Positions 4,690 through 28,840 of a stretch of 59,152 bases of DNA are shown piece by piece (position 1 is the first letter of the stretch; every line of letters starts with the position of its first letter). A program made the position numbers and the translations under genes. The notes below the pieces were generated by a model, which saw nothing but the letters and a program-made list of their open reading frames with translations, ran no database searches and was not told the origin of the DNA. The stretch lies in the IMG/VR virus record IMGVR_UViG_3300005290_000034, positions 1 to 59,152 of that record, one strand, 5' to 3'. This DNA comes from a virus.

Positions 4690-4874
4690 TTTTTCTTCCG
4701 CTCGTAATACTGTCTGGAAGCTATGACATGACACTCCAAGCAACGGATGTAGAGCCGACCATCATTCGAAATGACATAGGAGTTAGAAGGCTTCTTTGGG
4801 TGCCCGCAGTTGAAGCGTCCGGTGCGCAGCGGCTTGCTCTGGAGCATCAGCAGTTCGTTGGCGGTCAGCGTCAT
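4686..4874 (-). CDS. Small zinc-ribbon protein (62 aa)
   Basis: A 62-aa product with Cys/His pairs FNCGHPK and RCLECH about 20 residues apart, a likely zinc ribbon, and a basic C-terminus (YYERKKK). Overlaps of 4 bases on both sides link it to the methyltransferase gene. Probably nucleic-acid binding; function not known. Confidence 0.65.
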   Translation of the reverse strand: MTLTANELLMLQSKPLRTGRFNCGHPKKPSNSYVISNDGRLYIRCLECHVIASRQYYERKKK

Positions 4875-5851
4875 GCGGCAAATTCGAAGTCGTGCTGTTG
4901 TTCGTCCTGCTTGCCCGCGCGGGCGGTCTCGAGGTTCCTGACGGCCTGCCGGTAGTAAGATGGCTTCAGTTCAAATCCGATGCCCTTACGACCAGCGCAG
5001 ACGGCGCTGTAGACCTCGGATCCAACTCCCATGAACGGCGTGAGCACCGTCTCGCCCGGATTGCTCCAGAGCGTCAGGATGCGGTCTATCACGTCGAGTT
5101 GGAGCGGGTGGACGTGCTTCTCGTCCTCTTCGTCGCGCGCCTCTTTGAACGGGAGAACGCGTCCGAGACGAATATCATCCCAGAATGCCGAGGCATACTG
5201 GCGCCAGATCCAATGCGAATAGCGGTTCTCGATCTGGTTTCCGGTCCATCCACGGTAAGCGAGGATTTCTGTCGGCGGCCGGCGCTCGCCCGCATAATCC
5301 AGCAATCCAACCGGGTGCGCGATGGGGATTTGATTCTCACCCTTGCGCCGAAACACTAGCAGGTAATCCGCACTGGCTGCCGAACACCGGGACGAGTCAT
5401 CTACGATCGTCTTGTGCGCGAGGTTCTTTGCCATCGTCCGGTTACGCACTGCGAGCGGTTCCTTCCACACGGCATAGCGCGCGATGTAGCGGAATCCGTT
5501 CTTCTCATGCAGTCGGATGATGTCGCCTGGGAAGTCGATTAGATAATCGGTCCCGCTATTACCGCTCGGGACGTCCATCGCGTGAACAGCGGTCATGCGG
5601 CCTGGAAGCGTGAGCCGGAACAGTTCCTGCACGACGAACGCGTAATGATCGAAGAACTGCGCGTAGTCTTTGGAATTCGACAGATCACGCTCGCTGGAGC
5701 TGTAGGTATAGAGTGCACCGGACGAGGTTGCGAACGGTGGAGAATAAATCGAGAGTGCCACCGATGAATCAGGCAACGCACGCATACCTTCGATCGCATC
5801 CCCGCAATAGATGGCGTATTTATCCGTGATGACTTGCTCTTGTACGCTCAT
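4871..5851 (-). CDS. N4/N6 DNA methyltransferase (beta-class order)
   Basis: A 326-aa protein with the catalytic motif IV SPPF (about residues 37-40) near the N-terminus and the AdoMet motif I (TPFMGVGSEVYSA, then GFELKPSYY) near the C-terminus, the order of beta-class amino-methyltransferases. A Ser before PP is typical of cytosine-N4 enzymes, but adenine-N6 cannot be excluded. The start is the ATG at 5849-5851, overlapping the HNH stop. No partner restriction endonuclease is adjacent, so it is an orphan enzyme, likely protecting phage DNA from host restriction or marking it. Confidence 0.85.
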   Translation of the reverse strand: MSVQEQVITDKYAIYCGDAIEGMRALPDSSVALSIYSPPFATSSGALYTYSSSERDLSNSKDYAQFFDHYAFVVQELFRLTLPGRMTAVHAMDVPSGNSGTDYLIDFPGDIIRLHEKNGFRYIARYAVWKEPLAVRNRTMAKNLAHKTIVDDSSRCSAASADYLLVFRRKGENQIPIAHPVGLLDYAGERRPPTEILAYRGWTGNQIENRYSHWIWRQYASAFWDDIRLGRVLPFKEARDEEDEKHVHPLQLDVIDRILTLWSNPGETVLTPFMGVGSEVYSAVCAGRKGIGFELKPSYYRQAVRNLETARAGKQDEQQHDFEFAA

Positions 5852-7883: not shown

Positions 7884-8567
7884 TCATGTCAGATCGCAGT
7901 CTTTGATGGCTTGGAGGAAGATCGCTGCAATAGCGGGCACGATGGCATTTCCGAGAGCAGCGAGTCTGGCTCTAGGCGTGTCCAGCCTGCGGGATAGCCC
8001 ATGCGTCTCTCCCATTCCTCCGGGTCGATATTGGCGCCCTTGCACCCCGGCCACTTCTGCATTGACGCGCAATTCTGATTCGCCGTCGCAGTGGGTGTGG
8101 CCGAGAATCCAGTAGCGTGTGCGCCTATGGTCGAATCCGACGGCACAAGCCGGAACTTCAAACGTTTGCGTTTCGTAGCCGATGGAGTCCAGGTCAGAAA
8201 CCACTTGCTCGAGTGCCACGCTGTCGATGTGAGTAACGTTCTCACAGAGCACGCAAGCGGGCCGGCATGCTTTGACAACGCGCAACATTTCCGGCCAGAG
8301 GAAACGGTCATCTTCCGTGCCGTTGCGTCTCCCGCGACTGGCGGAACTGAACGGCTGACAGGGGAATCCTCCGGTGATAATGTCGCACTCGATTCGTTGA
8401 ACAGATCGAACGTCGTCATAGATCGGCACCCCGGGCCAGTGCTTCCGCAGGACTGCTTGGCAATACGGCTCGATCTCGCAGAAAGCTACAGTCTCGTAAC
8501 CGCCAACCATGCGCGCAGCCAGAGCAAATCCCCCGATCCCGCTGAACAGGTCTAGATGTCGAAGCAT
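7884..8567 (-). CDS. DNA cytosine-5 methyltransferase
   Basis: A 227-aa C5-methyltransferase: motif I LDLFSGIGGF at the N-terminus, motif IV GGFPCQPFS with catalytic Cys about 70, motif VI ENV (about 109-111), motif VIII RRTRYWILG, and motif X LGNAIVPAIAAIF at the C-terminus. The region between VIII and X is short, so the target-recognition domain is minimal. It is an orphan enzyme, presumably for modification of phage DNA against host restriction. A second long frame overlaps it on the same strand (see findings). Confidence 0.9.
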   Translation of the reverse strand: MLRHLDLFSGIGGFALAARMVGGYETVAFCEIEPYCQAVLRKHWPGVPIYDDVRSVQRIECDIITGGFPCQPFSSASRGRRNGTEDDRFLWPEMLRVVKACRPACVLCENVTHIDSVALEQVVSDLDSIGYETQTFEVPACAVGFDHRRTRYWILGHTHCDGESELRVNAEVAGVQGRQYRPGGMGETHGLSRRLDTPRARLAALGNAIVPAIAAIFLQAIKDCDLT

Positions 8568-8927: not shown

Positions 8928-9284
8928 CTAATACTGACATTTTCTCACGCGAACGTCACGCCTTGGACTATACGGCGACTTCGCGTTGCTCCGCCCGAAT
9001 ATCAGCGCGGGACCACGCTTTTTATTGCACGATCGGCACAGCGGCACGACCGCCAACGGGCGCGTGTAGTCACGATGATCGTAAATCTGCGCGAAGGCTC
9101 CGCAATCCACACAATACGCGGTATCAATCGGAGGTAAATCACCGTTTTCTACGGCCTTCCGAACCGCGCTGTACGCGCGTGCTTTGTCTGCGTTCGTTCG
9201 TTTGACGCACGCCCAGCAGTAAACCGAATGCGGCTCTCGCTCGAAGGCCGATCCACAGCGCACGCAAAGGCTGATGACATTCAC
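8928..9284 (-). CDS. HNH-like zinc-binding protein (118 aa)
   Basis: Starts at GTG (9282-9284), overlapping the TGA of the HTH gene. It carries Cys pairs CVRCG, CWAC, CVDCG and CRSC plus YDHRDYTRPL, the layout of small phage HNH-type or zinc-ribbon proteins in which the histidine lies between the last two Cys pairs. It could be a nuclease or a structural zinc protein. It is the second gene of the leftward operon. Confidence 0.65.
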   Translation of the reverse strand: MNVISLCVRCGSAFEREPHSVYCWACVKRTNADKARAYSAVRKAVENGDLPPIDTAYCVDCGAFAQIYDHRDYTRPLAVVPLCRSCNKKRGPALIFGRSNAKSPYSPRRDVRVRKCQY

Positions 9285-9502
9285 AACCGCTTGCCTTTCT
9301 TCTGGGCTGGCTTCTGGCCCGTCAGCAGGTAGTTCCGGACGATCAAAAGCCGCCGATAGGACGGTTCCGAGGCGTAATCGTCCGCCCCGACTTTGGTAAT
9401 CCACGAGTAAGAGACCGCCGGGCGCAAATCATCGGCAATCTTCCTCCACTCGCCCCGGCGACTCCTGAGCGCCGCCGCCACTTCCGCAAATAGATCATCC
9501 AT
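9281..9502 (-). CDS. HTH DNA-binding regulator (Cro/CI-like)
   Basis: A 73-aa protein with a helix-turn-helix-like region (WRKIADDLRPAVSYSWITKV, then helical RRLLIVRNYL) and a basic tail. As first gene of the leftward operon, facing the rightward promoter, it is the natural candidate for the lytic or early switch regulator. The predicted -10 box at 9510-9515 places the transcript start within a base or two of the ATG (9500-9502), so the mRNA is probably leaderless. The assignment rests on position and the HTH pattern; no CI-like C-terminal domain exists. Confidence 0.6.
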   Translation of the reverse strand: MDDLFAEVAAALRSRRGEWRKIADDLRPAVSYSWITKVGADDYASEPSYRRLLIVRNYLLTGQKPAQKKGKRL

Positions 9503-9509
9503 ACGGCGG

Positions 9510-9539
9510 ATACTACCGTAAAATTTTGCGCGTGTGCAA
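9510..9539 (-). promoter_or_regulatory. Leftward sigma70-like promoter
   Basis: Read on the minus strand: -35 TTGCAC (9534-9539), 18-base spacer, -10 TAGTAT (9510-9515). Transcription would begin at about 9503, almost on the start codon of the HTH gene. Confidence 0.55.
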
Positions 9540-9563
9540 GCTATACATTAAAATAATGCTTGC
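9536..9563. promoter_or_regulatory. Inverted repeat, candidate operator
   Basis: GCAAGC-TATA-CATTA-AAA-TAATG-CTTGC is an inverted repeat centred between the divergent promoters, overlapping the -35 of each. TACCGTA (about 9514-9520) and TACGGTA (about 9594-9600) form a second, wider inverted pair. These are plausible operator sites for the adjacent HTH protein. Confidence 0.45.
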
Positions 9564-9588
9564 GTATCTGGTAAAACTTTGATAGTAT
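9560..9588 (+). promoter_or_regulatory. Rightward sigma70-like promoter
   Basis: -35 TTGCGT (9560-9565), 17-base spacer, -10 TAGTAT (9583-9588), or alternatively TATGAT at 9586-9591. It would drive the rightward early operon from 9622. A GGTAACAAA motif (9597-9605), shared with two other promoters here, lies just downstream. Confidence 0.5.
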
Positions 9589-9621
9589 GATTCTACGGTA
9601 ACAAACAAAGAGGCCAGCAAA

Positions 9622-9956: not shown

Positions 9957-9975
9957 AGGCAGGGAGACGAGATGA
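9957..9975 (+). repeat. Start-associated repeat, copy 1
   Basis: AGGCAGGGAGACGAGATGA: a 19-base sequence holding the ribosome-binding site and start codon of the following gene, repeated exactly at 10210, 10520 and 10750. Confidence 0.85.
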
Positions 9976-18940: not shown

Positions 18941-19253
18941 ACTGACGCGCGCAGATATTGCGAAGCTACTAGAGCGATGGTTGCACAGCGGGTGCCCAGA
19001 CTGCCTAGGCGATTGCGCGTCTGCCAATCCACCAGTGACTTGCTGCATTGTCCGAGAAACCTACGATGCCCTGCGCTCCCTCTCTGCGCCCGAGCGCGAG
19101 GGGTGGGTGAGCGTGCCGAAGGAACCGACAAGGGAAATGCTCGCGGCTGCGTTGGGCAAGCCCGGATTGCAGCTTTTGAACATGGATAGACTGCCCGCCG
19201 GTCAAATCGTAAAGATATGGAGCACCATGCTCGCCGCCCTATCAAATGAGTGA
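18933..19253 (+). CDS. Hypothetical protein (106 aa)
   Basis: A Cys cluster (GCPDCLGDC and CC) lies near residues 20-38, and a C-terminal segment WVSVPKEPTREMLAAAL follows, which resembles the DUF551-like SVPxEPT motif. Possibly a small zinc domain linked to a phage accessory domain. Confidence 0.6.
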   Translation: MSELTRADIAKLLERWLHSGCPDCLGDCASANPPVTCCIVRETYDALRSLSAPEREGWVSVPKEPTREMLAAALGKPGLQLLNMDRLPAGQIVKIWSTMLAALSNE

Positions 19254-19665
19254 GCTTAAAAGCTGTCCGTTCTGCGGCAGTGATCGAGTGGCTCTCTGGA
19301 AGCCGACCTGCAATCGTCAGTCACCCTATAACCCGGCCGATCGCGCTTACCCGGAGGTCGGGTGTCGCGACTGTTTCGCCTCGGCTCACGGGAAAGATTG
19401 GGACGAGACTGGGCGCACAGCCATAGCAGCCTGGAACCGTCGCGCGAGCGCGCAGGATGCGAGAGAGGCGGCAGACGCCGCGCGCTGGCAACATTTCGTG
19501 TCTCATATCAGTGGTGGACGTGACCCGCACGGACGCGAATGTTTCGTTATCGAGATTCCAGACCCACGTCCCGGCGTCAGCATCATGCGCGGCTCGGTTG
19601 CCGAACATTTCACCGACGCGATAGACGCCGCCCTTCGCGCCGCCGCGCCGAGCGGGGAGGACTAA
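19246..19665 (+). CDS. Lar-like zinc-ribbon protein
   Basis: N-terminus LKSCPFCGSDRVAL, then VGCRDCFAS and AIAAWNRRA, the signature of the Lar family (restriction alleviation protein fold). The C-terminal half (about 75-139) is a different, alpha/beta region. Lar of Rac prophage modulates type I restriction; here only the fold is inferred. Its TAA overlaps the TAG of the opposite-strand gene in CTAA. Confidence 0.7.
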   Translation: MSELKSCPFCGSDRVALWKPTCNRQSPYNPADRAYPEVGCRDCFASAHGKDWDETGRTAIAAWNRRASAQDAREAADAARWQHFVSHISGGRDPHGRECFVIEIPDPRPGVSIMRGSVAEHFTDAIDAALRAAAPSGED

Positions 19666-22249: not shown

Positions 22250-23647
22250 CTAGGTGTCGGCCGAAACGACTTTCGTTACGTTATCGCCGAAGCGCACTTT
22301 CAGGTCGCCGTCTGCCGAGTCGATATAGAATCTCGCCTGACCTGCCGCCGCCGTCGGTGCTGTGACTCCATCCTTGAGCGTAAGATAGCCTGCAAGCTGG
22401 ACATTCAGCACACCGTTCGCATCCCACGCCAAGATCGCAACGTCTTGTAGTGTCCCGCCGGTCAGCAACTGGATTTTGATCGACGCTTGCTCATTTCCGT
22501 CTACAACAGAAGTGGCGGAAGCGACCAACTGTGCGAAGGGCAGCCATTCGTTGTTTGCGTTCTTCTGAATGAACGGGAGGGTAATCCCGGTGCCGGTGCC
22601 AGCGGAGTTTGTGCCGACAGAATGTGCAATCCCGCTTGGCCCTGCAATCGCACCCGAGGCTCCAATCAACGGATCCCCTGTGACTAGAGATCCATGCACC
22701 GAGCAGCCGGAATGCGTGAAGCTTGATCCGTTGACGCAGTTCACGGTGAAGATGCCCGAGCCCGCGAAGACGCAGGTATCGAGATCGACGCCCCACACTT
22801 TTGCAGTATTCCCGAGTCTGATACAGCCCTGCGTTGGAGGGATGCCGCTATATTCGAAATGACAGTTGATCTTGGCGTTGACGTCTCCCTGAGTCGACAT
22901 GTCGATTTCGATGCTGACCGCGGTTCCGCTCTCAATGTCAGATTGTCCGTCGACGGTGAGGCCAATGCTGTCCTTGAACCGCAGTGGTACGGTTCCGCCC
23001 AGCGTGCAGTGCGAAATGTGCAGGGTGTTCGTATTCGCTCCCGCATCGACTGCATAGCTCGCGGCGCCGAGGAGTTCGCTGTCGATGATGGACCAACCAA
23101 AGCAGGAATTAGGCGCGGTCCCGCCGGGATTGAACTGAACGTCTGTGTCGAAGCCTCTGATGGCGACGTCGTAGAGGCGCCCGTTTTGAGAGTTCGTGAC
23201 CTTGATGCCGCAGCCGGTCGGGTTCGCCGCGGTGCTGACGATCGCGATCGATTCAATGATCGGACAGTGCCGGTCGGTTATAACGATCACGTCGGCGCTG
23301 TCGATATCGGTCGTGATAATGACCGGCGGTCCGATGGTGTAATCCCCAGATCCTTCGCCCATCCATTTAGCGGCGCTGGTGTGCATGGAAAGGCAACCGT
23401 TTCCCGGCCCGGGCGGGACGACGTAATAGGTGCCCTTCTCAAACCATAGAATGCCGCCCGTGATGAGATCGGCGTCCGCGGCGTTGATGCCAGCGGTGTC
23501 GTTCGCTACGCCGTCGCCAACTACGCCGTAGTCCTCGTCCATGACAGCGACGATATGGCGCGCAGTCATGTAGGCACGCATGGCGGGCTTGTCGACGTTG
23601 CCGGTTGGGGCGGGAGCGTCTATCAGGAAATCTTCGGGTTTGCTCAT
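22250..23647 (-). CDS. Tailspike, pectate-lyase-like beta helix
   Basis: A 465-aa protein. Near residue 38 it has DYGVVGDGVANDTAGINAA, the entry motif of pectate_lyase_3/right-handed beta-helix tailspikes, followed by short-strand repeats up to about 330. The C-terminal about 70 residues (DGVTAPTAAAGQARFYIDS, VRFGDN) form a domain common at the ends of phage fibres, probably trimerising. It is likely a receptor-binding depolymerase of host surface polysaccharide. Last virion gene before lysis. Confidence 0.75.
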   Translation of the reverse strand: MSKPEDFLIDAPAPTGNVDKPAMRAYMTARHIVAVMDEDYGVVGDGVANDTAGINAADADLITGGILWFEKGTYYVVPPGPGNGCLSMHTSAAKWMGEGSGDYTIGPPVIITTDIDSADVIVITDRHCPIIESIAIVSTAANPTGCGIKVTNSQNGRLYDVAIRGFDTDVQFNPGGTAPNSCFGWSIIDSELLGAASYAVDAGANTNTLHISHCTLGGTVPLRFKDSIGLTVDGQSDIESGTAVSIEIDMSTQGDVNAKINCHFEYSGIPPTQGCIRLGNTAKVWGVDLDTCVFAGSGIFTVNCVNGSSFTHSGCSVHGSLVTGDPLIGASGAIAGPSGIAHSVGTNSAGTGTGITLPFIQKNANNEWLPFAQLVASATSVVDGNEQASIKIQLLTGGTLQDVAILAWDANGVLNVQLAGYLTLKDGVTAPTAAAGQARFYIDSADGDLKVRFGDNVTKVVSADT

Positions 23648-23655
23648 TCTTATCC

Positions 23656-23694
23656 TTTGTTACAATTTGTTACACTTTACCTTGTTGCTATATA
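23656..23694 (+). promoter_or_regulatory. Moron A promoter with tandem TTTGTTACA sites
   Basis: TTTGTTACA occurs at 23656-23664 and 23666-23674, one helical turn apart. -35 TTGTTA (23667-23672), 16-base spacer, -10 TATATA (23689-23694). CACCATAGACA follows at 23716-23726, as in the second cassette. The repeats overlap the -35, suggesting repressor control. Confidence 0.65.
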
Positions 23695-23745
23695 TGTAGC
23701 TCGGTGATACATTAACACCATAGACAAACGAACCGGAGACGAAAA

Positions 23746-23997
23746 ATGACAACCATCCTGATAACCAAGCAAATCGAATCCGAACACGGTTTCTACTTCG
23801 AAGCGACCTGCGGCAAAACGACTGCGCAAGTAGCCATTCATTCAGACCGCGTGCAAGTAATCTGCTTAAACGCAATGCATAAAGTCGCGCGCGGTCCCGG
23901 TCGGGTTTTCCCGTCAGTCTCTGCCGCAATCCAAGGCTACAAAAAAGCCGAAATGCGCGCCATTATTGAAGCCGCCGCAGATGCGGTTTCTCACTGA
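23746..23997 (+). CDS. Moron A gene 1, hypothetical (83 aa)
   Basis: First gene of a plus-strand cassette inserted in the minus-strand tail region. A small alpha/beta product (TILITKQIESEHGFYFEATC, then SVSAAIQGYKKAEMRAII), DUF1508-like in feel but not certain. Driven by the promoter at about 23667-23694. Confidence 0.65.
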   Translation: MTTILITKQIESEHGFYFEATCGKTTAQVAIHSDRVQVICLNAMHKVARGPGRVFPSVSAAIQGYKKAEMRAIIEAAADAVSH

Positions 23998-23998
23998 T

Positions 23999-24256
23999 AT
24001 GACAATAGTTCTGTGGCACGATCCGACCGAATCCACGGTCGAGCTTTATCCGCATTGGGATATGGATGCCGGAGACTTCGTTTCGGTAGAGACTGGCCCT
24101 CCCATAATCCCGCTCATTCAGTTAAATACGGTCCTAATGGATTCCGGCAGGATATGGGCTTGCATTCAGCATGACGGCGATACCACCCATGCTGGCTTCA
24201 TCGACACGTTCGAACCCTGCCGTAGCTGGTTCGAACCCGTAGAGGATGAAATCTGA
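23999..24256 (+). CDS. Moron A gene 2, hypothetical (85 aa)
   Basis: ATG at 23999 overlaps the end of gene 1. Beta-rich, Trp-containing product (TIVLWHDPTESTVELYPHWD, GRIWACIQHDGDT). Not recognised. Confidence 0.6.
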   Translation: MTIVLWHDPTESTVELYPHWDMDAGDFVSVETGPPIIPLIQLNTVLMDSGRIWACIQHDGDTTHAGFIDTFEPCRSWFEPVEDEI

Positions 24257-24375
24257 TGCTTAATCCATATCAGGAAGGCTTTAACGCTGGCTGCGAACAC
24301 GTCAGGCGTAACGAGGTTGAGATGTTGATTGAATCCGTTAAGGATCTAATCCGCGTTTTTGAGCAATATCTATAA
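24256..24375 (+). CDS. Moron A gene 3, 39 aa, possibly truncated by an in-frame stop
   Basis: ATG at 24256 (overlap with gene 2) to TAA 24373-24375. The product is helical (EVEMLIESVKDLIRVFEQYL). The same frame stays open and protein-like for 39 further codons to TAA 24493-24495 (DYEGVIDNAKQILGEMPKKS), without its own start. The gene may be a 79-codon frame interrupted by one nonsense codon. Confidence 0.5.
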   Translation: MLNPYQEGFNAGCEHVRRNEVEMLIESVKDLIRVFEQYL

Positions 24376-24505
24376 ACTGGCCGAGGAGACTATGAAGGCG
24401 TTATAGACAATGCCAAACAAATCCTCGGAGAAATGCCAAAAAAGAGCATCTACGCTCAGCCTCGGGCCAATCGTCCCTTCTGGACAAAGCCGTAAGAGTA
24501 AAAGC

Positions 24506-24712
24506 GTGCCATCCCCTACAGACATTCGATCGGCCAGAGAACGAACCGGCCTTACTCAAACCGAGGCCGCCGCTTTAATCGGCGTTTCTCGCGTTACGTG
24601 GACCCGCTGGGAGACTGGTATCACCCCGCCTCCCGCAGAGCCGCTGTGGCGATTCTGGCTGCACGTCGCGGGTCTGGAGCGCATTCCCTTCAGCGCGGCC
24701 TCTTCCAAATGA
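24506..24712 (+). CDS. Moron A XRE-type HTH regulator (68 aa)
   Basis: Helix-turn-helix GLTQTEAAALIGVSRVTWTRW followed by ETG and WRFWLHVAGLERIPF. The start is placed at GTG 24506-24508, where the protein aligns end to end with the 68-aa paralogue of moron B (both open with P-x-P-x-x-IRS); an ATG at 24410 would add an unmatched N-terminus. Likely represses its own cassette promoter. Confidence 0.75.
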   Translation: MPSPTDIRSARERTGLTQTEAAALIGVSRVTWTRWETGITPPPAEPLWRFWLHVAGLERIPFSAASSK

Positions 24713-24869
24713 GAGGGACGCGGTTAAAGCCGACGACTGGCCGCGGTAGAGTGCGCTTGAATGCTTCTGCTATAGCGTTGGCGACGGGCTTTGGTTCTGC
24801 GCGGATCGCTTCGTCGAAGTAGGGCTGGCCGCGCTTCGTTATGTCGGGTTTATAGGGTGCGTGTGGCAT
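24690..24869 (-). CDS. Small hypothetical protein (59 aa)
   Basis: Minus strand, ATG 24867-24869 to TGA 24690-24692. The product (PHAPYKPDITKRGQPYFDEA, LPRPVVGFNRVPLIW) has convincing protein composition. Convergent with the XRE gene, overlapping its 3' end by 23 bases. Continues the leftward tail operon past the moron. Confidence 0.55.
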   Translation of the reverse strand: MPHAPYKPDITKRGQPYFDEAIRAEPKPVANAIAEAFKRTLPRPVVGFNRVPLIWKRPR

Positions 24870-24981
24870 AATTCAGGTGAGCGGCCAAATAAGGCAGACA
24901 TGCGCCTCTTCTTCGTGGCGCGTTCTCCGGGGTCGTTGTCCAGTGCGTCTTTGCCGAATAGATTGGACGCCGCTCACTCAT
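24850..24981 (-). CDS. Small hypothetical protein (43 aa)
   Basis: ATG 24979-24981 overlaps the tail-tip stop by 8 bases. The product is short and basic (SERRPIYSAKTHWTTTPENA); it overlaps the next small gene by 20 bases. Modest support. Confidence 0.35.
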   Translation of the reverse strand: MSERRPIYSAKTHWTTTPENAPRRRGACLPYLAAHLNYATRTL

Positions 24982-27238
24982 CCCCCGACCTTTCGGGCGG
25001 AAGACTTCCCCCACTCCCGGCTCCCGCTCCGGTAAGGATGAACGCCGCCGACATGTCCGAGATATTTCCCGCCGCAGTAACCGAGCGCATGGTGTAAGAG
25101 CCATCGTTGAGGCCTGCAATAATGGTAGGCGAGATCGGCACCGCATCGTTCCATATCGCGCCGTCCTTGAATAACTGGTAGTGATCGGCACCGGTGCCAG
25201 TCGTCCACTCGAGCTGACCGATGGTTGAGCTCGTCAAGCCGGTCGGCGGACTCGGGGCGAGGTCCGTGGTCCAGGTTGAAGTTAAGGCGCCAACGGTCCG
25301 GATGCGTATGTCCTGCGGCGGCGTGCGCGGAATGTAAGTCTTGAGTTCATCGCCCGCCGGGATAATCCCGGACGAGGTCCACGTCGCGATCCCCTGCGAG
25401 CGATACTGAACCTCGTAACCGCTGCTGCCCGGGCCAGCGGTCGCGGTCCATGTGACGAATAAATGATCTGGAGCGACATCTGTTGGCGTGCTGACCGAAA
25501 TCACCGGAGGAACGGCAGCACTATCCGGCAGCACCACGCCCTGAAGTTCGGCTGCGTCCTGCTCGTCTGCGATCGACCAGTCCCAGACGCTCGCATCTTC
25601 CTCTTGCAAGGTCAGGTCGATGCCGCTGAAGTTCTCGGCCAGCGCCCATGATATGACTCGGAATGTGTGCCCGTTGACCATCGGAAAACGCGATGAGTTT
25701 AGCGTCACGCAGTCCCACGCCTGCACCCGAAAGCCGGAGAGGTTTACGGGCCAGTGAACAGTCAGTTGTTGCCTGTTGCGACCGAGTGCGACCTTCATCA
25801 ACCGCTGTGCTGTCGGCCCCGAAGTCGTGAACGGAAGCCGTATGTCCTCGATCAGTTCCGCGTCATTGTCCTCGGCCAGGAGTTCGGGCGTAGGCAATAA
25901 TGGCGGAGCATCTGTCGGCTGCCAGTTCGCGTCCGGCGAGACATAGACCGCCCGCACCCCATTCATGCGATCGCGCATAGACCGCTTGGGGATAATCTCG
26001 GGCTCGTCGCGCAAGTCTCGGTCTGTGAATTCGACCGTTGCGAATCCTGGAGCGCCGGCATGGATGAACCACACGCCACCGATGTAGATCACCTGCCCCG
26101 CCATCGCGGTCAGGAGTTGCTGCAGGACTTCGCCTTTCTCGGCGTCGAGCGTGAACGAGCCGTTCAGCTTGTATCTGGCCTCATCCCATGTGGTGAGCGT
26201 AAGCGTGCCAGAGCCGATGTCCGCCGGAACGATAGCGGCTTCGGCAAAAGCGCCAGATACGTTAGCCGCAAGGCGGTAAGTGTTGTTCGCCGACGGGATC
26301 ACGTAATACGTCGTGTCCGCGGCAAAGCGCGTGGGCAAGGCACCAGAGGAACTCAGCCGCACGCCGTCGCCCCAGTCCAGCACCCGCGCACTCGACTGGT
26401 CGAGGCTCAGAGATCCGTCTGCTGCGATAAAGAACTCGACGTCCTTCGGCTTGACCGCAACGCGCTCGTCGCAACGATTGGCGCTCGCTATCAGGGTATC
26501 TTCGTCCAGATCCTCCCACGCGAGTGCCATGCCGAAGGGCGCAATCAGCCAGCGGGCGACGAGTAAGGCAGCATTGTTGCTGAACGCGAAAATGTTAGTC
26601 CGCGGATCAAATACCTTGTCATCTCCGTCCACCATCCACGACAGGTTCGGCAGGCCCGCGCTGAAGGCCGTCTGATCGAAGATAAGCTTCGAGGCAACAT
26701 AGGCGCGGCCGCGCAACCGGTGCTGGTCAGTCCACGCCCCGGCGGTCTCGGCTACCAGCATGTCGTCGGCCAGTTGGTCGTCTTCTCCCAAATGCTTTGA
26801 GAACGCGACTTGATGAACGAATTGGGGATCAATCGACAGCGTTTGATTCAGATACGTGTCGCCGATGCGCTTGACGTGCGTGGCAGCCAGACCGTGGACG
26901 AAATAAAGAAAGCCGTTAGGACGCCCGTTCGGGTCGTTCTCCGAATCAGTAAAGAGCATCGGCCCCGAAGTTTTGAGTCGCCCAAATGGAATTGAATGCG
27001 GCGCGATCGGCTCGCGGATTTGCTGGGTGCGACCGCCGCCAGCAGCGTTGAGAGGAGAGGTAAGGTCGGTCGACTTTGGATGCGAGAGAAGAGATTGCGC
27101 CAGTGTTGACGCCGCCATTGCCGCCGCGCTTACTATAACCGTAGCGGCGAGGGTGCCAGCTATCGCTGTTCCAGCGATGACTGCCCCAGCCCCATAGGCC
27201 GCAGCAGCAGCGACGACAACCGGAACTGCCATCGGCAT
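24974..27238 (-). CDS. Central tail tip / host-specificity protein (754 aa)
   Basis: N-terminal about 50 residues are hydrophobic Ala/Val-rich. The segment IREPIAPHSIPFGRLKTSGP, then GRPNGFLYFVHGLAATHV, is typical of siphovirus tip proteins of the lambda J / baseplate hub type. The middle (about 350-560) holds mixed beta domains. The C-terminal third contains two fibronectin-III-like modules (VISVSTPTDVAPDHLFVTWT, then PSPPTGLTSSTIGQLEW). It forms the tail tip and probably contacts the host. Immediately upstream lies the moron B cassette on the other strand. Confidence 0.8.
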   Translation of the reverse strand: MPMAVPVVVAAAAAYGAGAVIAGTAIAGTLAATVIVSAAAMAASTLAQSLLSHPKSTDLTSPLNAAGGGRTQQIREPIAPHSIPFGRLKTSGPMLFTDSENDPNGRPNGFLYFVHGLAATHVKRIGDTYLNQTLSIDPQFVHQVAFSKHLGEDDQLADDMLVAETAGAWTDQHRLRGRAYVASKLIFDQTAFSAGLPNLSWMVDGDDKVFDPRTNIFAFSNNAALLVARWLIAPFGMALAWEDLDEDTLIASANRCDERVAVKPKDVEFFIAADGSLSLDQSSARVLDWGDGVRLSSSGALPTRFAADTTYYVIPSANNTYRLAANVSGAFAEAAIVPADIGSGTLTLTTWDEARYKLNGSFTLDAEKGEVLQQLLTAMAGQVIYIGGVWFIHAGAPGFATVEFTDRDLRDEPEIIPKRSMRDRMNGVRAVYVSPDANWQPTDAPPLLPTPELLAEDNDAELIEDIRLPFTTSGPTAQRLMKVALGRNRQQLTVHWPVNLSGFRVQAWDCVTLNSSRFPMVNGHTFRVISWALAENFSGIDLTLQEEDASVWDWSIADEQDAAELQGVVLPDSAAVPPVISVSTPTDVAPDHLFVTWTATAGPGSSGYEVQYRSQGIATWTSSGIIPAGDELKTYIPRTPPQDIRIRTVGALTSTWTTDLAPSPPTGLTSSTIGQLEWTTGTGADHYQLFKDGAIWNDAVPISPTIIAGLNDGSYTMRSVTAAGNISDMSAAFILTGAGAGSGGSLPPERSGDE

Positions 27239-27267
27239 TTAGTCGCCTCTCGCGTTTTTAGTATGCA

Positions 27268-27297
27268 AATTGTTACAATTCTCCGCTTGCATATATT
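27268..27297 (+). promoter_or_regulatory. Moron B promoter with AATTGTTACAATT palindrome
   Basis: AATTGT-T-ACAATT (27268-27280) is a perfect palindrome overlapping -35 TTGTTA (27270-27275); a 16-base spacer leads to -10 TATATT (27292-27297). CACCATAGACA at 27318-27328 repeats the moron A leader. Same spacing as moron A. Confidence 0.65.
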
Positions 27298-27351
27298 GTT
27301 GCATTAGGCTACAGTATCACCATAGACAGAGAAACCAGACAGGAAACCAAA

Positions 27352-27564
27352 ATGAAAACCCAAACCTTCCAAGCACGTAGTCCGGTATTCGGTATTCAAC
27401 GCTTCCGCATCGGTTCGACCGTCCGCGTAACAAACGAACGTGAGCCGGTTACGGTCACAGGCATCGACGAAAAAGACGGCATGATGATCGTCGACTACAC
27501 GGATCCGAGCGGCGCATGGGTCTGGGCATGGGCCGACAGCATTAGTCAAGTAATCAAACTCTAA
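27352..27564 (+). CDS. Moron B gene 1, hypothetical (70 aa)
   Basis: Small beta-rich protein (FRIGSTVRVTNEREPVTVTG, IVDYTDPSGAWVWAWAD), perhaps an SH3-like fold. First gene behind the cassette promoter, followed without a gap by the HTH gene. Confidence 0.65.
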   Translation: MKTQTFQARSPVFGIQRFRIGSTVRVTNEREPVTVTGIDEKDGMMIVDYTDPSGAWVWAWADSISQVIKL

Positions 27565-27770
27565 TGCCTAACCCCGCCCAGATCCGGTCCTGCCGCAAAG
27601 TGATCGGACTCACTCAAGCCCAAGCCGCCGAACTGATTTCCGTGGATCGGGTGACGTGGGCGAAATGGGAAACCGGAAAACGACCGATGCCGCTCCATAC
27701 ATGGCGCTACTGGCTTCATCTCGCCGGAGTCGAGCGCCTTCCCTTTCACCGCACTGGAGAACCAAAATGA
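27564..27770 (+). CDS. Moron B XRE-type HTH regulator (68 aa)
   Basis: HTH with GLTQAQAAELISVDRVTWAKWE, then ETGKRPMPLHTWRYWLHLAG and VERLPF. A clear paralogue of the moron A regulator (24506-24712) with the same length and domain. Start ATG 27564 overlaps the preceding stop. Confidence 0.8.
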   Translation: MPNPAQIRSCRKVIGLTQAQAAELISVDRVTWAKWETGKRPMPLHTWRYWLHLAGVERLPFHRTGEPK

Positions 27771-28111
27771 GAACCGCCGCCCTTGTAACGTGCCTTTTGC
27801 TCGCCGGCTGCGCTGCCACGCCGACCCAAGTCGTAGAGACCGGCCAACAGTCCACCTATGCGCTAAAGAACGCGCCTGAAGTCGCGGCTGGTTGTATGGC
27901 TCGGAATGTCGAAAAACACTATGAAGGGAACCTGCAGGCCATCGTCCGCCGGCTGGAAAAACCAGAATCCTATGAAGTCGTCGTGCGCAACTTCCCTGAG
28001 TTCACGTTCGTTTACGCCATCGCGGAACCGCAAAAGGCCACCGTCTGGGTGCGCGAGCAATGGTTCTCTGGTCGTGACACTATCGCCGCCACAATGACCG
28101 CCGGCTGCTAG
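27767..28111 (+). CDS. Moron B lipoprotein (114 aa)
   Basis: Signal peptide MRTAALVTCLLLAGCAATP with lipobox LAGC; mature protein about 100 residues with two Cys (AAGCMAR and terminal AGC) and a helical/beta mix. Phage-encoded lipoproteins in morons often mediate superinfection exclusion; that role is inferred only from context. Confidence 0.75.
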   Translation: MRTAALVTCLLLAGCAATPTQVVETGQQSTYALKNAPEVAAGCMARNVEKHYEGNLQAIVRRLEKPESYEVVVRNFPEFTFVYAIAEPQKATVWVREQWFSGRDTIAATMTAGC

Positions 28112-28123
28112 ACCCGCCACGCC

Positions 28124-28522
28124 ATGACGACCTCGAAGTATCCCGTCAAACGTACCGTTATCATACGAACTGCCGAGCGTTGGGACTGCGGCCTCGGACA
28201 TAATCACACTACCAAAGAGATCGCCCTTTCTTGCATAAAAACCCACGATCGCCCTAAACGGAACGTCGTCAACTGGACCAGAGAGGAGTATTTCAACGTT
28301 CTGTTAATGCGCGAAAGAGACGGTCTCACCTTCAGTAAGATCGGAACGCATTACGGACTCTCTTCGGGGCGCATTGCACAGGTCTATGCCAAAGCATGTC
28401 GAATGCGGCGCCGCGACATAACCCGTCTCACTGGCATACAGTTCAAATGGGATGGAACCGACTATTCCATACCGCTAGACCCGCCAGCAGATCACGACCT
28501 CAGACAGCGGAATGGTGTGTAG
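28124..28522 (+). CDS. Moron B HTH protein (132 aa)
   Basis: N-terminal CGLGH with two His (possible metal site), then an HTH-like segment (LLMRERDGLTFSKIGTHYGL, then SSGRIAQVYAKACRMRRRD), reminiscent of a sigma-70 region 4 HTH. Convergent with the tail peptidase gene, overlapping it by 48 bases. Confidence 0.6.
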   Translation: MTTSKYPVKRTVIIRTAERWDCGLGHNHTTKEIALSCIKTHDRPKRNVVNWTREEYFNVLLMRERDGLTFSKIGTHYGLSSGRIAQVYAKACRMRRRDITRLTGIQFKWDGTDYSIPLDPPADHDLRQRNGV

Positions 28523-28840
28523 TCCGGACTTCCCCAAAAACGCGGCGTAGCGGCCCGTACAGACGCCCAATGTCGGCTCGGGTAGGGATGCCAGCACCAC
28601 ATCCCCCGGACGCGCCAAAGAGCGCCTAATGCGCGGGAAATAGGTATCTGCGGTCTCGACCAACGTCCCGCTCAATTCCGTTGGTAATTCCCGCCCGGTA
28701 ATGGCTTGAACGCAGGCCCGGGCGAACAGGGCACAGTTCCACGTTCCAGCATCGAACTCCCGCGTACGCGCTTCGTCCAGCACGACCGCGAGACGGGACT
28801 CCCAGCCCGGGAGCCTCAATTCGGACTCGGCGTGCCCCAA
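28475..28840 (-). CDS. Tail-associated NlpC/P60-like protein (DUF6950-type)
   Basis: A 121-aa protein with RLPGWESRLAVVLDEARTRE, then GTWNCALFARACV, the small phage-tail domain in which the Cys aligns with the NlpC/P60 nucleophile; a HTIPLSEV segment carries a possible His. It sits just after the tail-tip scaffolding gene, where lambda-like phages keep the K/I-type peptidase used in tail tip assembly or cell-wall opening. Confidence 0.7.
   Translation of the reverse strand: MGHAESELRLPGWESRLAVVLDEARTREFDAGTWNCALFARACVQAITGRELPTELSGTLVETADTYFPRIRRSLARPGDVVLASLPEPTLGVCTGRYAAFLGKSGLHTIPLSEVVICWRV

Follow-up and report, generated by a model that had tools for sequence, protein, structure and literature searches.

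Two plus-strand moron cassettes with a common control region and Aca10-like regulators within the tail genes of a virus

What is the role of two short operons that run against the tail genes of a virus, and are they under a common control? The window analysed here is the complete 59,152-base virus record IMGVR_UViG_3300005290_000034. Its minus strand carries the late genes (terminase, portal, capsid, tape measure, gpJ-like tail fibre, tail spike, holin and endolysin), and an early block with ERF, YqaJ, NinB and Lar occupies 9.6-19.8 kb of the plus strand. Cassettes A (23667-24712) and B (27270-28522) are on the plus strand inside the minus-strand tail block, as a first-pass annotation of this DNA had claimed. 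No tRNA genes were detected in the record.

Several features elsewhere in the record were also recorded. The exact 18-mer GGCAGGGAGACGAGATGA occurs at 9958, 10211, 10521 and 10751 on the plus strand, where it overlaps the starts of four early genes; 0.04 occurrences are expected within 3 mismatches, and the repeat resembles start-associated repeats in some phages. The Shine-Dalgarno sequence of the first gene of cassette A (23735-23742) has GGAGACGA in common with this 18-mer. A 73-aa protein without a family match (9281-9502, minus strand) is divergent from the early operon over a short AT-rich region (9500-9620) and is possibly an early regulator. The record has two DNA methylase genes (4871-5851 and 7884-8567, both on the minus strand; N6/N4 type and short C5 type) as well as a gene for Lar-type restriction alleviation (19246-19665, plus strand), and the phage looks well equipped to withstand restriction.

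Gene content and insertion position of the cassettes

Cassette A comprises, all on the plus strand, two small proteins without a family match, A1 (83 aa, 23746-23997) and the acidic A2 (85 aa, pI 4.1, 23999-24256), followed by the 39-aa ORF A3 (24256-24375) and the 68-aa regulator XRE-A (24506-24712, GTG start). A3 ends at an in-frame TAA (24373-24375), past which its frame stays open to 24495 and meets a second stop immediately ahead of XRE-A; a gene broken in two, or else a sequencing difference, is the probable explanation. Cassette B, likewise on the plus strand, starts with B1 (70 aa, 27352-27564), which has no family match and a low-confidence beta-rich model. The ATG start of the 68-aa XRE-B (27564-27770) overlaps the B1 stop (TAATG). 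Two further genes follow, a 114-aa lipoprotein (27767-28111) with the lipobox LLAGC and a weak match to phrog_914, a family of unknown function, and a second HTH protein of the sigma-70 region 4 type (132 aa, 28124-28522; PF04545, 5.7e-6, 26.2 bits against a cut-off of 24.1). The lipobox and the PF04545 score bear out the lipoprotein and the second HTH protein that had been proposed for this cassette.

Three tail genes on the minus strand surround the cassettes. The tail spike-like gene (22250-23647) flanks cassette A and starts 19 bp from its -35 element, the gpJ-like central tail fibre gene (24974-27238; phrog_5616, 2e-73; phrog_31, 2e-44) lies between the cassettes, and a DUF6950 tail gene (28475-28840; PF22262, 2.9e-26) flanks cassette B, its 3' end overlapping the last gene of that cassette. 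No convincing terminator was found at the cassette ends. Between gpJ and cassette A, a minus-strand 59-aa ORF (24690-24869) runs into the 3' end of XRE-A, and both cassettes terminate within a converging ORF (this one for A, DUF6950 for B).

At most 4 bp separate gpJ from the gene before it in five distant relatives: Roseobacter phages CRP-821 and CRP-406, in which the preceding gene carries the name DUF6950, Acinetobacter phage IMEAB3, Serratia phage Opt-155 and Klebsiella phage VLCpiS6a. For VLCpiS6a, an annotated 235-bp gap disappears if the ATG at L027:3827 is taken as the gpJ start, and the product from this ATG resembles the N-terminus of the gpJ in the window. With ~27-30% gpJ identity, these relatives show the usual gene order rather than the exact parent. 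A search for gpJ in records with the same portal, run without a positive control, did not find it. In the window, the DUF6950-gpJ junction is split by 1.2 kb containing cassette B. GC3 averages 0.60 in the cassette genes, against higher values of 0.67 in early and 0.71 in late genes. The cassettes thus show what defines a moron, namely an own promoter, insertion between genes that adjoin in relatives, and atypical composition.

A common promoter, leader and palindrome

Both cassettes start with matched promoters, TTGTTA-N16-TATATA in A (23667-23694, plus strand; -35 at 23667-23672, -10 at 23689-23694) and TTGTTA-N16-TATATT in B (27270-27297, plus strand; -35 at 27270-27275, -10 at 27292-27297), each followed by the leader box CACCATAGACA (plus strand, 23716-23726 in A and 27318-27328 in B), which has no other exact match in the record. 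This correspondence, noted from the letters in the first-pass annotation, holds up statistically. The local alignment of the two promoter-plus-leader regions scores 191, and the maximum over 2000 dinucleotide shuffles is 117 (0/2000 reach the observed score); the leader by itself also aligns above every one of 2000 dinucleotide shuffles. The pattern TTGTTACA-N39..43-CACCATAGACA, which combines promoter and leader, occurs twice in the record and in none of 100 shuffles. When two mismatches are allowed, CACCATAGACA occurs at chance level, and only the exact pair in its context is informative. A sigma-70 consensus scan found 3 sites against 5.9 expected, thus no excess, and only the B promoter passed its filter. 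Since such a scan is weak evidence when taken alone, the case for the promoters rests on the match between A and B.

We found homologous palindromes right after the -10 element in both cassettes, TGTAGC-TCGGT-GATACA in A (23695-23711, plus strand) and TGTTGC-ATTAG-GCTACA in B (27297-27313, plus strand), with the consensus TGT(A/T)GC-N5-G(A/C)TACA. These candidate operators end just upstream of CACCATAGACA, at an equal distance in A and B. Across the four half-sites, 22 of 24 letters agree, which was reached in 16 of 1000 column shuffles when all positions and gaps were considered at that arm length; with longer arms, 58 to 84 of 1000 column shuffles equal the observed agreement. A second element, a tandem TTGTTACA(A/C) overlapping the -35 in A (23657-23675, plus strand), has within it the 9-bp palindrome TTGTTACAA, which overlaps the -35 in B as well (27270-27278). 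In single-sequence shuffles neither TTGTTACAA nor the palindrome after the -10 is significant. The signal for the shared palindrome as an operator is modest and suggestive. The inverted repeats bound by Aca proteins lie inside or adjoining the core promoter, and the palindrome after the -10 is close to this reported position (PMC9410906).

The first-pass annotation described the two XRE proteins as members of one family, and named XRE proteins of differing families on a profile search as a refuting result. The profile search came out in its favour: both proteins exceed the Pfam cut-off for HTH_31 (9.5e-12 for XRE-A, 9e-9 for XRE-B), and the paralogous pair is 59% identical over 63 residues. 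At synonymous sites the two genes are saturated (NG86 dS ~2.8, dN 0.36), with identical letters at only 7 of 23 four-fold sites (30%), and are under purifying selection as judged from these rates. By comparison, 30 of the 39 positions of the leader (77%) are identical between A and B (Fisher p 0.0005 against the four-fold sites), and the difference persists when the half-site and the Shine-Dalgarno part are removed from the leader (18 of 23 identical, p 0.003). Given the synonymous saturation of the XRE genes and the 77% identical leader, the cassettes appear to be old relatives whose regulatory DNA was kept. This DNA looks selectively maintained in the two copies compared, and gene conversion of the non-coding part is another way in which the identity of the leader could have arisen. 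The leader RNA shows no structure signal and has no Rfam match.

Of the proposal that a regulatory chassis was duplicated and its cargo swapped, the chassis with swapped cargo is well supported, and duplication within this phage is not shown. With synonymous sites saturated, two separate acquisitions of related cassettes fit equally well. A search for the same chassis in other phage genomes had been suggested as a check; viral contigs were searched and no relative of the cassettes was accepted. Among 2.9 million viral contigs, the XRE pair has no relative with the same cassette and three HTH-level relatives in other contexts, and in GTDB genomes it has one match, judged to be due to chance. 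The promoter-plus-leader pattern yielded no credible further copy across viral contigs. Four matches to it were rejected, as they lie in apparently unrelated coding DNA and their count is near the estimated chance level. Because no relatives carry the cassettes, the conservation is that of two copies.

Regulators and cargo compared with the Aca10 system

The profile of the XRE pair, compared with all solved structures, matches best 7xi5 (E 2.8e-10), which is Aca10; this entry code appears in the Aca10 structure paper, and the residue numbers of the paper fit the chain (PMC9410881). XRE-A and XRE-B are 43-44% identical to Aca10 over ~50 residues. Aca3 is also matched, weakly. The XRE proteins carry the C-terminal motif WR(F/Y)WLH(V/L)AG. 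The structure models of XRE-B and B1 are poor (pLDDT 60.7 and 57.8) and unsuitable as structure-search queries. Matches to XafT, MqsA and RstR were set aside as generic HTH matches below the curated cut-offs.

Aca10 represses the acrIC7-acrIC6-aca10 operon via a promoter palindrome; in this operon, a palindrome-bearing TTGCAA-N16-TATTCT promoter is followed by two small acr genes and, after these, by aca (PMC9410881). More generally, an acr-aca operon combines small acr genes with an aca gene and has a strong early promoter along with one or two inverted repeats (PMC9410906). Residue Q22 of Aca10 is conserved in both XRE proteins, and its critical DNA-contact residue R44 corresponds to R40 in XRE-B and T40 in XRE-A. 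The dimer residues G49 and E52 are fully conserved among Aca10 homologs (PMC9410881); in the alignment with XRE-A and XRE-B they are absent, G49 being replaced by E and H and E52 by R in both. With E52 absent from both proteins, the pair is Aca10-like and does not belong to Aca10. Both are small HTH proteins in an operon with small phage genes, as Aca proteins are defined in general.

None of the cargo genes matched an Acr or toxin family in Pfam or NCBIfam or any defence model, and no known acr gene is present in either operon; in the literature, known acr genes accompany only 15% of Aca-like genes. For A1, A2, B1 and the lipoprotein, no match in Pfam, PHROGs, NCBIfam or PADLOC goes below E 0.001. 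Together with the second HTH protein, they also have no relative among 50,697 phage records, and in IMG/VR no close relatives were found for gpJ, DUF6950, A1 and the second HTH protein. The cassette genes of no known family make good candidates for host-disarming proteins.

Proposed mechanism, alternatives and known systems

We somewhat favour reading the cassettes as acr-aca-type accessory (moron) operons under autorepression, which would be switched on early and then shut themselves off, with lead genes directed against the host. Both operons would have been inserted antisense at tail-gene junctions. Once the DNA enters the cell, host sigma-70 polymerase would read the TTGTTA-N16-TATAT promoter, giving early constitutive expression, and A1, A2 and B1 would act immediately on some function of the host, with a defence as the most likely one. 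The Aca10-like XRE proteins would build up and, as dimers, occupy TGTWGC-N5-GMTACA, which lies between the -10 and the leader; the operon would in this way be silenced ahead of the transcription of the late tail operon across the opposite strand. Each XRE may also act on the partner operon, given the matching palindromes. On the sequence evidence, autorepression by the XRE proteins is probable, and the chance that the cargo is anti-defence is about even. In favour of an acr-aca reading count the XRE paralogy with purifying selection, the conserved leader, the shared palindrome, the Aca10 match and the similar operon plan, the small unique lead genes without relatives, the low GC3 of the cassette genes and the junction split by cassette B. 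Counted against it are the position of XRE-B as the second of four genes rather than the last, the commonness of short XRE proteins, the lack of E52 in both proteins and of R44 in XRE-A, the modest palindrome signal, a conservation seen in two copies, and the lack of an Acr match. An extended version, in which diverged, cross-acting Aca10-like repressors, one operator and one leader, the latter perhaps also an element of RNA-level control, form a two-operon anti-defence regulon with pluggable unrelated cargo, including new anti-defence families, is tentative and considerably less probable.

The first-pass annotation proposed expression independent of the lytic programme, and independence from the late operon is plausible from strand and promoter. 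Expression during lysogeny is unsupported, given that neither a tyrosine (PF00589) nor a serine (PF00239) integrase was found in the record, which may be incomplete; all or nearly all control genomes were positive. An HTH_3 search of the record found the two cassette XRE proteins only and no CI-like repressor. These results weigh against the unlikely alternative that the cassettes are lysogenic-conversion morons, whose expression from a prophage would alter the host surface, with the lipoprotein serving in superinfection exclusion and the XRE proteins tuning the level. The clean lipobox of the cassette B lipoprotein and the own promoters opposite to the late genes speak for this alternative, as does the placement of cassette A after gpJ, where lom sits in lambda.

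Still less probable is a role in controlling the tail genes themselves, by which the XRE proteins and the sigma-70 region 4 protein would bind the divergent regions before tail spike and gpJ, with a contribution of antisense transcripts. The -35 elements are 19-31 bp from the starts of these two genes, the TTGTAACAA palindrome adjoins the start of the spike gene, and DNA-binding proteins make up 3 of the 8 cassette genes. However, gpJ is directly joined to its neighbours, without such an element, in the five relatives, and A1, A2, B1 and the lipoprotein would remain unexplained. Toxin-antitoxin modules, with the XRE as antitoxin and a small neighbour as toxin, are the least probable, as the HTH similarity to MqsA, PezA and HipB-type antitoxins is generic and below curated cut-offs, no neighbour matches a Pfam or NCBIfam toxin family, and the partner genes of the XRE differ between A and B.

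If the acr-aca-type reading is correct, the shared promoter, operator and leader would provide a sequence handle to counter-defence genes that have no relatives, and those lead and cargo genes that lack database relatives would offer concrete candidates for novel anti-defence proteins. The phage would then keep two separate accessory operons on one regulatory design, in which cargo can be swapped and the control remains unchanged. The new elements here are evidence that a shared control region has been maintained, the resemblance to Aca10 and the insertion position.

Four known systems share part of this plan. The morons lom and bor of lambda are independent transcription units, one adjoining gpJ and the other with lipoprotein cargo, features that are found here too; unlike lom and bor, the cassettes carry XRE regulators and run opposite to the late genes, and no integrase was found in the record. 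The VC1465/XafT family of the Vibrio TLC phage has an HTH ~41% identical to that of the cassette XRE proteins, in an alignment that extends into the C-terminal part, but is longer (a 111-position model) and acts in Xer recombination activation; the two XRE proteins score 39.5 and 35.1 bits with its model NF040522, below the cut-off of 70, and are not members. Pseudomonas phage Sirocco (OR683410; L016 2317-2893), a cultured phage with a similar cassette plan, has a hypothetical gene and an HTH gene that lie between P2-like tail genes and run opposite to them, with 40% HTH identity over 45 residues; it differs in having a single cassette and a longer HTH protein (~115 aa). Finally, the acrIC7-acrIC6-aca10 operon of Pseudomonas citronellolis differs in the sequence and place of the palindrome and in its acr genes, which have no match here. 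Like the cassettes, it has small lead genes that precede a short XRE repressor of similar length with 43-44% identity in the HTH, and a sigma-70 promoter with a 16-bp spacer and a palindrome in the promoter region, a plan that is found here in two operons of a single phage.
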